Shown here piece after piece: positions 196 through 61,106 of a DNA stretch of 64,000 bases. Position 1 is the first letter of the stretch; every line of letters begins with the position of its first letter. Source of the DNA: Roseiarcus fermentans (GTDB lineage Bacteria; Pseudomonadota; Alphaproteobacteria; Rhizobiales; Beijerinckiaceae); contig NZ_QNRK01000011.1 of the NCBI RefSeq assembly GCF_003315135.1, positions 62,001 through 126,000 on the forward strand, read 5' to 3'. The translations under genes were made by a program, and so were the position numbers. Below the pieces are notes generated by a model that saw nothing but the letters and a program-made list of their open reading frames with translations, did not search any database and was not told the origin of the DNA.

Positions 196-778
196 TGGGT
201 CGCGACATAAGCTGCTTCGACACCCGGGAGCGACGAAACGACAGCGAGGCCGCCCTTGTCCGATCCCCTCCGTCCGCCGTCGAGCCCCGTCCGCACGCCC
301 CAGACGGCAGGGCCGGCTGGGCGGCGCGGGGAACGGCGGGAAGCCAAATTTGTTCGCCCGTAACTCCCAAGCCGGCAGCGAATAGCGCCGTCATCGCGAG
401 CGAAGCGAAGCGATCTAGGGCCGCTGGGCCGCTGTCGCGCCCTCTGGTCGTCCCGCCGCCCTTCCTTGCGAGCAAAGACGGAGCGATTTTTTCCGCAGGA
501 AGCAAGCGGCGGCATGGATTGCTTCGTCGCTTTGCTCCTCGCAATGACGGGGTTGGGAGTTACGTTCGCCCCGCGGCGCCGCCGCAAACCTTTGAAAAGG
601 CCCGCTTCGCGCGAGGGAATCCAAGAGAGACCAAATGTCCCGAAACCCCGTCTCCGCCGCCCGGCGCGGACGCCCGCGGCGCCGTTGCGGAAGGCGGCGG
701 CGAAGCCAACTCCGCGCTAAAACTAATAGTGATTGTTATATCTTGTCCGGGCCGGGCCCTGCATCGCGCCGCCGCCCC
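196..778. other. Gene-free convergent intergenic region containing a MITE
   Basis: Two converging genes end at 195 and 779. Overlapping open frames here on both strands are GC-driven and show no family resemblance. The only structured content is the 204-bp inverted-repeat element at 360-563. The remainder, 196-359 and 572-778, shows nothing I can name, apart from a more AT-rich patch at about 718-745 just past the end of the minus-strand gene. Confidence 0.6.
360..563. mobile_element. MITE-like element, copy 1 (204 bp) with 11-bp TIRs and 8-bp target duplication
   Basis: The element starts GTAACTCCCAA at 360-370 and ends with the exact reverse complement TTGGGAGTTAC at 553-563. It is flanked by a perfect 8-bp direct repeat GTTCGCCC at 352-359 and 564-571, as expected of a target-site duplication. 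The interior is a long imperfect palindrome: CGTCATCGCGAGCG near 393 pairs with CGCAATGACG near 541-550. No transposase frame fits inside, so mobilisation would need enzyme in trans. An 8-bp duplication and ends beginning GTAA resemble what I recall of the IS66 family, so an IS66-type transposase is a reasonable guess. A near-identical element lies at 60770-61016 with its own target duplication. Confidence 0.85.
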
Positions 779-45609: not shown

Positions 45610-46145
45610 GGTCGGGCTCCCGGAGCCGTCTCACTCGAAGTCACTGCCAAGGACGGCGCCCCGGCGTCGTCAGCGCGAGGGGCCCGAAGGGCGACGCGGC
45701 GATCCGGGAGCCGTCTGCGCTTCCGGCCGCCGGAGCGCCGGACTCCACTGGCGTCAGGCGACGGCGTCCCGGACTCCTGGATCGCCACGTCGCTTCGCTC
45801 CTCGCGATGACGACGTTGAAGCGAGCTCCCGCCTTGGGAGTTACCGCTGCAAACGGAAACCGCGGCAAAGCGCCGCGCCACCGCGGCGGGGACACCGTCC
45901 ACCAGCAGCTCTTTTGGCGCGGCGGCGCCGGAGCGCCGGCCCATCGCTTCCCCCACCCGGCTCGCCTTGAAGAGGCGGGTCCGACTTCGATTTCCGATAG
46001 CTAACATGCCAGCCACCCAACCGAGGCTCTTATAAGCCGACGTGGTTCGGGGGTCCACTGCAAAAGGCGAGCGCCGCCGCCAGGCGGCGAAGTCGGGCGC
46101 CGCGGCGCGCGGGCTCGCGCGCGCCGGGCCTGCCTGGGCGCGATC
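45610..46145. other. Gene-free stretch with a decayed MITE upstream of the LsrA-like gene
   Basis: About 536 bp between two minus-strand genes. Positions 45640-45844 form a decayed inverted-repeat element. The remainder, 45845-46145, contains no convincing gene; an AT-richer patch near 45985-46035 might be the promoter for the ABC operon. Confidence 0.45.
45640..45844. mobile_element. Decayed MITE-like element, copy 3 (205 bp)
   Basis: The right end TTGGGAGTTAC at 45834-45844 is identical to the TIR of the two intact copies. The left end GTCACTGCCAA at 45640-45650 matches the TIR at 9 of 11 bases. The total, 205 bp, is almost identical to copy 1 (204 bp). Internal arms CGTCAGCGCGAGG and CCTCGCGATGACG still pair. 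The 8-bp flanks (CACTCGAA at 45632-45639 and CGCTGCAA at 45845-45852) match at only 5 of 8 bases, so the target duplication has decayed. It probably is an old insertion of the same family. Confidence 0.6.
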
Positions 46146-60650: not shown

Positions 60651-61106
60651 TTCCTGCCGATCCCGGCCGTCGTTTCGCCGCGGTTCGGGCAGCGCGGCGA
60701 CGCCGAATCCCGCCCCTGCGCGACAACGCGAAGCCTGTGAGCGGGCCACGGACGAATCAGGCGGAGGAGGTAACTCCCAAGCCGGCAGCGAACAGCGCCG
60801 TCATCGCGGGCGACCCCGGGGTCGAAGAGCCCGGGGGGAAGCGATCCAGGGCCGCTGGGCCGCTGTCGCGCCCTCTGGTCGTCCCGCCGCCCTTCGTTGC
60901 GAGCAGAAGACGGAGCGATTCTTTCCGCAGGAAGCAAGCGGCGGCATGGATTGCTTCGTCCCCCCGGGCTCTTCGACCCGGGGGTTGCTCCTCGCAATGA
61001 CGGGGTTGGGAGTTACCGGAGGAGGCGCGCCCGCCTCCAACCCCCTCGAGATTCCGCCGCTGTGTCGGATGAGGTGTTGGTCGGCGCCCCTGGGGGCGCC
61101 GACGGC
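60651..61106. other. Convergent intergenic region with an intact MITE
   Basis: About 456 bp between the convergent O-antigen-ligase-like gene and the small protein gene. The MITE fills 60770-61016. The rest (60651-60761 and 61025-61106) contains no recognisable gene; a possible hairpin GGCGCCCCTGGGGGCGCC at 61083-61100 sits just past the end of the small protein gene and may end its transcript. Confidence 0.5.
60770..61016. mobile_element. MITE-like element, copy 2 (247 bp) with 11-bp TIRs and 8-bp target duplication
   Basis: The element begins GTAACTCCCAA (60770-60780) and ends TTGGGAGTTAC (61006-61016), identical to copy 1 at 360-563. It is flanked by a perfect 8-bp duplication CGGAGGAG at 60762-60769 and 61017-61024. 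The interior follows copy 1 closely (for example GCCGCTGGGCCGCTGTCGCG) except that each palindrome arm carries an extra roughly 20-25 bp of mutually complementary sequence (left arm about 60812-60838, right arm about 60959-60985). No transposase gene fits inside. Confidence 0.87.

Follow-up and report, generated by a model that had tools for sequence, protein, structure and literature searches.

Is a short repeat with perfect inverted ends an ordinary intergenic palindrome or a transposition unit, and if the latter, what could move it? The question is raised by a unit near the start of a 64,000-nucleotide stretch of the Roseiarcus fermentans genome, referred to below as the window (contig 11, positions 62001-126000, in an assembly of 6.79 Mb and 90 contigs). 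We consider it likely, and hold this with good confidence, that the unit belongs to a family of non-autonomous miniature inverted-repeat transposable elements (MITEs) cross-mobilised by an insertion sequence (IS) of the ISBst12 group of IS66 in the same genome, that insertion is partly guided by sequence, and that arrays of units arise where a site is hit again.

The first copy lies at 360..563 on the plus strand and, at 204 bp, is too short to hold a transposase gene. Its terminal inverted repeats (TIRs; 360-370 and 553-563) agree without a mismatch over 11 bp (GTAACTCCCAA), and at 13 of 14 positions when extended to 14 bp. Directly outside them stands the exact 8-bp repeat GTTCGCCC, at 352..359 on the left and 564..571 on the right. 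A sequence-only reading had called these TIRs and this direct repeat correctly; the interval it quoted, 352-571, takes in both 8-bp repeats. It was also right about a second copy with the same TIRs (60770-60780 and 61006-61016) at 60770..61016 on the plus strand, flanked by a different exact duplication, CGGAGGAG, at 60762..60769 and 61017..61024. This copy is a 247-bp long-arm variant, which differs from the first mainly in that both arms contain a palindromic insert of 21 bp. A decayed third copy of 205 bp (45640..45844, L062; like the duplications, without an assigned strand) has a left TIR reading GTCACTGCCAA, an exact right TIR, and flanks CACTCGAA and CGCTGCAA that differ at 3 positions.

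With up to one mismatch allowed, GTAACTCCCAA occurs five times in the window, each time exactly, where shuffles lead to an expectation of 0.13. Only at copies 1 and 2 does the window have an exact 11-bp inverted repeat, its arms separated by 100-400 bp, together with an exact 8-bp repeat flanking it, and no such combination appeared in 20 block shuffles of the window. The interior of copy 1 carries the arms of a palindrome resembling repetitive extragenic palindromic (REP) sequences (388..550, plus strand; CCGTCATCGCGAG at 388-400 and CTCGCAATGACGG at 538-550, 92% complementary). Both copies folded better than 200 shuffles, with z-scores of -2.96 for copy 1 (computed on 361-563) and -8.80 for copy 2. 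When the joined flanks of copy 2 were sought in the genus, one congener (G004) had 47 bp between the flanking matches, too short for the element; this is diverged intergenic sequence in which a single copy of CGGAGGAG could not be aligned.

Genome-wide, the exact TIR occurs 156 times, compared to none for the reversed pattern, and copy 1 has at least 47 matches (with 40 of 254 candidates scored). Among 100 genomes of relatives searched, its own included, the exact TIR was found in 17, and ten congeners hold 0-8 each; the family has thus expanded in this species. We listed 100 of the 156 places and added AAGCC and AACC ends separately, a list that may miss further end types beyond contig 31. 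Pairing ends with at most two mismatches and 120-260 bp apart, in 90 stretches over the listed places and leaving one-ended units uncounted, yielded 103 units of 124-247 bp, 101 of them with both flanks. The 8-bp flanks were identical in 57 of these, differed at one position in 25, at two in 6 and at three or more in 13, in a set that includes array members and so is not one of independent units. Sliding the right flank by 1-3 bases left 0 or 1 exact pairs, and random pairing gave 1.46. Several of the units with many mismatches lie inside compound arrays (L069, L083 and L096), and others appear to be mis-paired. Isolated units, counted apart (n = 60), had exact duplications in 37 cases against 0.71 at random, one mismatch in 15, two in 4 and three or more in 4, so that 56 of the 60 fall within two mismatches. 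The sequence-only reading had argued from two duplications that these are transposition units and not ordinary intergenic REPs, a view that would have suffered had most copies in the genome lacked a duplication; the counts uphold it. Neither the MITE nor the target motif described below matched an Rfam family at gathering score.

Two further observations concern units and their flanks. Doubled 8-bp spacers adjoin a TIR end at L075:682-697 (AAAGTGACAAAGTGAC), L302:288-303 (GCTCGCCCGCTCGCCC) and L067:685-700 (GAACAGAGGAACAGAG), three of five doubled 8-mers, as excision that leaves both duplications behind would give. Some congener units that share this TIR are flanked by T runs, which suggests insertion at terminators: in G010, ATTTTTTC occurs twice at L124 and ATTTTTTA/ATTTTTTC flank L126, with single ends in L125 and L127 of the same genome and in L136 of G007. 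Others (L129, L130, L132, L135 and L142) lack such flanks.

To find a partner, we aligned eight ISBst12-type transposases and searched 299 relatives. In the own genome, the last 50 amino acids of an ISBst12-type TnpC were found at four places, all of them contig ends (E-value of 5e-12; 5 of 18 candidates scored), and at all four the 3' fragment is followed by GTAACTCCCAAGCCGC. Three other contig ends carry 5' IS ends, GTAACTCCCAAGCCGGGG, which resemble the 5' end of a truncated element in congener G004 (GTAACTGCCAAGCCGGGGTGAGTCC). Exact 8-bp flanks (CCCTCATT, GGGCGACC and AGCCGCCC) join the three 5' ends to three of the four 3' ends, while the flanks of the remaining nine combinations differ at 2-7 positions. 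The IS and MITE ends have 15-17 bp in common, and 17 bp are exact with some MITE ends; in the main MITE class, the left end agrees with the 5' IS end over 16 bp. The family therefore combines what defines a MITE: a short unit bounded by TIRs without a transposase gene, a constant 8-bp duplication, and matching autonomous ends in its own genome. From these shared ends we infer that this TnpC may mobilise the MITEs in trans.

The truncated congener element, spotted by eye and with one mismatch in its TIR, encodes a protein (L158) that passes the cut-offs for PF03050 (1.2e-19), zf-IS66 (3.2e-6) and DUF6444 (7.7e-12). Against NCBIfam NF033517 it reaches 158 bits, under the cut-off of 180, in a protein that is cut by the contig end. 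Its TnpC start lies 107 bp from the TIR, consistent with a single open reading frame (ORF) without tnpA or tnpB. Intact relatives are found in Octadecabacter arcticus, where two elements of 1605 bp are bounded on either side by GTAACTCCCAAG and have exact 8-bp duplications and a single transposase coding sequence. The partner group is thus characterised by a TnpC with the IS66 DDE domain, a single ORF in the congener and in Octadecabacter, and GTAA ends with 8-bp duplications. Related ends (GTAACTGCCCAG, GTAATTACCCAC and GTAACTATTCAG) and 8-bp duplications are also found in other ISBst12-type elements; clear ends with a duplication were seen in 6 of 12 loci in one set and 4 of 30 in another, in addition to the GTAAGCG-ended L211, many of the loci without a clear pair being cut by contig ends or too divergent. 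The sequence-only reading had guessed an IS66 origin from the GTAA start and the 8-bp duplications and had expected a transposase with matching ends. Both held, by way of the contig-end fragments, the truncated congener element and the Octadecabacter elements, and the similarity of the ends supports narrowing "IS66" for these MITEs to the ISBst12 group. As a side observation, the ends of one Legionellaceae ISBst12-type element (L176:2818-4787) run into CGTCATCCTGAGC...GGATCTC palindromes, and by eye it contains a small ORF resembling a GIY-YIG nuclease.

The places of insertion share a pattern of their own. Outer flanks show a common stretch of about 48 bp on one side, reaching the profile cut-off in 36 of 82 groups (76 MITE groups plus 6 IS ends) and in none on both sides. 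Its core, GCAAN5TGAAAA with at most two mismatches, lies at offset 20 from the TIR end in 28 of the 76 MITE groups (150 flanks), on exactly one side in each; 59 other offsets together account for 6 cases. Offset 20 corresponds to 12 bp beyond the duplication. At copy 1, the motif GCAAACCTTTGAAAA occupies 584..598 on the plus strand at just this distance and is the only match above 12 bits in the window, with a profile built from flanks that include it; the flanks of copy 2, scored in the same way, lack the motif. Among the IS sites, three of four have it at offset 20 and one does not. A TIR-like end (at most four mismatches) stands exactly 8 bp past the far duplication in 11 of the 28 motif groups, with other offsets occurring once each or twice (at 16), compared to 7 of 92 flanks in groups without the motif.

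The core, searched as TTTTCAN5TTGC, occurs 59 times in the own genome (reversed control 3) and 5-27 times in each congener (control 0-4). Element loci contain 26 exact motif places, 19 of which have a TIR-like end (at most three mismatches, as in the next two counts) within 70 bp, 17 at distance 20. Retrieval by the core gave 21 own loci with 29 motif places, of which 10 have a TIR-like end, 9 of them at distance 20; in congener loci, a single one of 27 places has such an end, at distance 3. Twenty motif stretches were hand-picked among the listed places, mostly outside element loci (L297 overlaps one), and L276 was left out of the distance count. As congener loci carry the motif without TIRs at this distance, it is probably a pre-existing insertion target. 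The core resembles what we take to be the consensus of integration host factor (IHF). Some motif places also hold a promoter-like TTGAAA + 17 + GRGAAT. A fixed orientation of the MITE relative to the motif was considered and dropped, as orientations appeared mixed by eye.

Many units are stacked. Where a right end is followed by the next left end within -5 to 100 bp, the distance is exactly 8 bp at 29 of 40 junctions; the other distances are 7 (three times), 9 and 16 (twice each), and -5, 20, 24 and 58 (once each). The spacer often equals the outer duplication, as for AATTGGAC, which occurs five times in L074. In L084, an IS copy abuts a MITE. In L083, ACCCGCCC flanks enclose two pieces, a unit of 205 bp and a TIR-bounded remnant of 35 bp, with GTCCAATT, which is the L074 spacer in reverse complement, between them; this layout suggests compound transposition. 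In three of the four arrays with the motif, conservation falls with distance from it (L039 100-100-89, L051 99-92 and L099 100-79). Separately, closely similar neighbouring units are split by GTCACTCTT in one array (L096:714-722) and by its reverse complement AAGAGTGAC in another (L069:937-945), and a group II intron lies among repeat arrays (L285:954-1091; RF02003, 99.3 bits).

Different origins for these patterns have to be weighed. That the units are ordinary REP palindromes that never transposed deserves next to no credence. A 23-bp piece of the internal palindrome, CGTCATTGCGAGGAGCGAAGCGA, taken from sister copies, does occur in 20 of the 398 genomes searched, the own genome included, which bears out in part the remark of the sequence-only reading that related palindromes are common in Hyphomicrobiales. 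Yet a REP or a bacterial interspersed mosaic element would be a palindrome without TIR or duplication, and both are present here. Moreover, none of the 28 CGTCATTGCGAGGAGCGAAGCGA places in other genomes has, within 60 bp, a TIR with no more than one mismatch, and the idea that the widespread palindromes are themselves ISBst12 MITEs was rejected on this count. It is also very improbable that a longer, multi-ORF IS66 moves the MITEs. The own genome has one such element with both ends (L031) and one partial (L032), with tnpA and tnpB assigned from ORF layout, as well as a weak third PF03050 match (L033, 23.8 bits); when loci were scanned for ends that begin with GTA and adjoin an 8-bp repeat, L031 alone gave a pair, and 29 congener IS66 loci gave none. 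However, the ends of L031 (GTAACCGGTACGA, with target duplication GTTCGAGT) share only GTAAC with the MITE, whereas the ISBst12-type fragments share the 15-17 bp and the target rule, and on end sequence L031 is ruled out as the mover.

The two remaining alternatives concern the flanks and the arrays. We consider it unlikely that the flank with GCAAN5TGAAAA, instead of being a target, belongs to an older repeat, mobile or REP-like, which moves together with the MITE. The 48-bp extent of the similarity and the existence of flank classes with matching duplication ends (CGCCC, GTGAC and GGAA) would fit such a repeat, as would the motif-fetched own places, few of which look untouched: in 15 of 29, the best TIR-like match (1-4 mismatches) is at offset 20. 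Against this, the 8 bp on the motif side of copy 1 recur at its far side, so the unit stops at the TIR; the motif is strictly one-sided; and congener cores occur without TIRs, the single TIR-like end among them being at a different distance. Distinctly unlikely, too, is that arrays grew by tandem duplication of a unit plus 8 bp, through slippage or unequal crossing over, and were then blurred by gene conversion. Two 226-bp units in L060 are mutually best matches at 99.6%, same-class units in L078 (513 and 1002) alternate and are 97.4% alike, suggesting some block duplication, and main-class neighbours share orientation in 7 of 9 cases. But only one of 25 adjacent pairs consists of mutual best matches. 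In every other pair, one or both units are closer to a non-adjacent copy, sometimes within the same array and in many cases at 98-100%, and as neighbours are mostly not the closest copies, repeated insertion is favoured. In addition, many neighbours differ in length class, some have opposite orientation (L073 and L096), and the autonomous IS and its neighbouring MITE in L084 share the spacer AGCCGCCC.

We therefore return to cross-mobilisation by the ISBst12-group IS, which could proceed as follows. A TnpC from a single-ORF, TnpC-only IS66 would recognise the end GTAACTCCCAA(G)CC and insert the unit through an 8-bp staggered cut. Insertion would be partly guided by sequence, about a third of the groups having been placed at 8 bp plus 12 bp from GCAAN5TGAAAA, a motif that either the transposase or a host protein bound to it may read, IHF being a candidate for the latter. 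Each insertion would restore the 8 bp next to the motif as well as next to the resident TIR. The same position could then be hit again, and repeated hits would build in-register arrays (unit-8 bp-unit-8 bp). Older, decayed units would tend to lie away from the motif, in an order of events deduced from their conservation. In its stricter form, the transposase or a DNA-bending host protein reads the motif and directs the cut 12 bp away; since each insertion restores the site, arrays would then grow from the motif side as time-ordered records of insertion. This stricter form we regard as possible, though falling short of probable.

Several results weigh against this interpretation. The fourth 3' IS end has no 5' partner, and the IS interior is absent from the assembly: a PF03050 search did not recover it, and the L158 protein gave no match (28 of 28 candidates scored). 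The assembly may have failed to separate near-identical copies, and the presence of an intact TnpC gene in this organism is presumed. In the main MITE class, the right end (GTAACTCCCAACCCCG) has only the 11-bp TIR in common with the IS ends. The motif is absent from 48 of the 76 groups, copy 2 among them, and from offset 20 at all 10 of the ISBst12-type elements checked elsewhere. It was moreover derived from the flanks that were later scored, which makes the motif-fetched places only partly independent. As just 4 of the 16 arrays have it at offset 20, the motif alone cannot account for the array register. Among these arrays, 3 have identical outer flanks, 5 have flanks that differ at one position and 6 at four or more, and 2 lack a flank. 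Finally, one of the four motif arrays, L069 (97-100-85), is out of age order.

Some MITE copies are themselves interrupted. A second insert, with TATGTCCTT near both of its ends, breaks them at a single position, in two length variants of the MITE. It was noted at left contig ends C1, C32, C42, C55, C60 and C66 and right contig ends C13, C9 and C57 (L034, L092, L106, L116, L119, L121, L065, L055 and L118). By eye, its flanks match at 8 of 8 positions for C42/C57 and at 7 of 8 for C60/C9 and C32/C13. It looks like a REP-targeting IS, and our guess would be an IS110-like one.

To our knowledge, transposition and target choice in the IS66 family have been little characterised. The R. fermentans genome offers about 100 natural insertions with a measurable target rule, together with the ends of the matching autonomous element; its arrays could order insertions in time, and a repeat that passes as intergenic palindromes is now tied to a named transposase group. 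In the literature searched, as far as its text was accessible, we found no account of the array register or of a fixed motif distance. The closest relatives in terms of ends are the Octadecabacter arcticus IS66 elements on pOA238_160 and pOA238_118 (L180 and L181), whose 11-bp TIR is identical to that of the MITE and whose TnpC is 48-49% identical to that of the congener; they differ in being autonomous, 1605 bp long and not adjoined by GCAAN5TGAAAA. ISDge4 of Deinococcus geothermalis, also of the ISBst12 group, likewise has a single-ORF transposase, an 8-bp duplication and related TIRs (GTGACTACTCAGCA / GTAACTGCTCAGCA), and the accessible text presents its movement as the first report of active ISBst12-group transposition (PMC12898284, 2026). 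Unlike ISDge4, for which that text mentions neither MITEs nor a target motif, the elements described here have GTAACTCCCAA ends, numerous MITE derivatives and, at a fixed distance, a target motif (PMC12898284). In QMITE2 of Coxiella, a different element, IS1111 insertions also make a MITE a hot spot for another IS, according to the accessible part of that study (PMC5896051). Prokaryotic MITEs in general are, in the accessible portions of a review (PMC10969869) and of Delihas 2007 (PMC2229807), similarly short and gene-less, with TIRs, duplications and ends like those of a resident IS, and some carry an IHF site. The words "IS66" and "tandem" appear nowhere in the accessible main text of these two sources, and in R. 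fermentans the core that we take to be IHF-like lies in the target and not inside the MITE.
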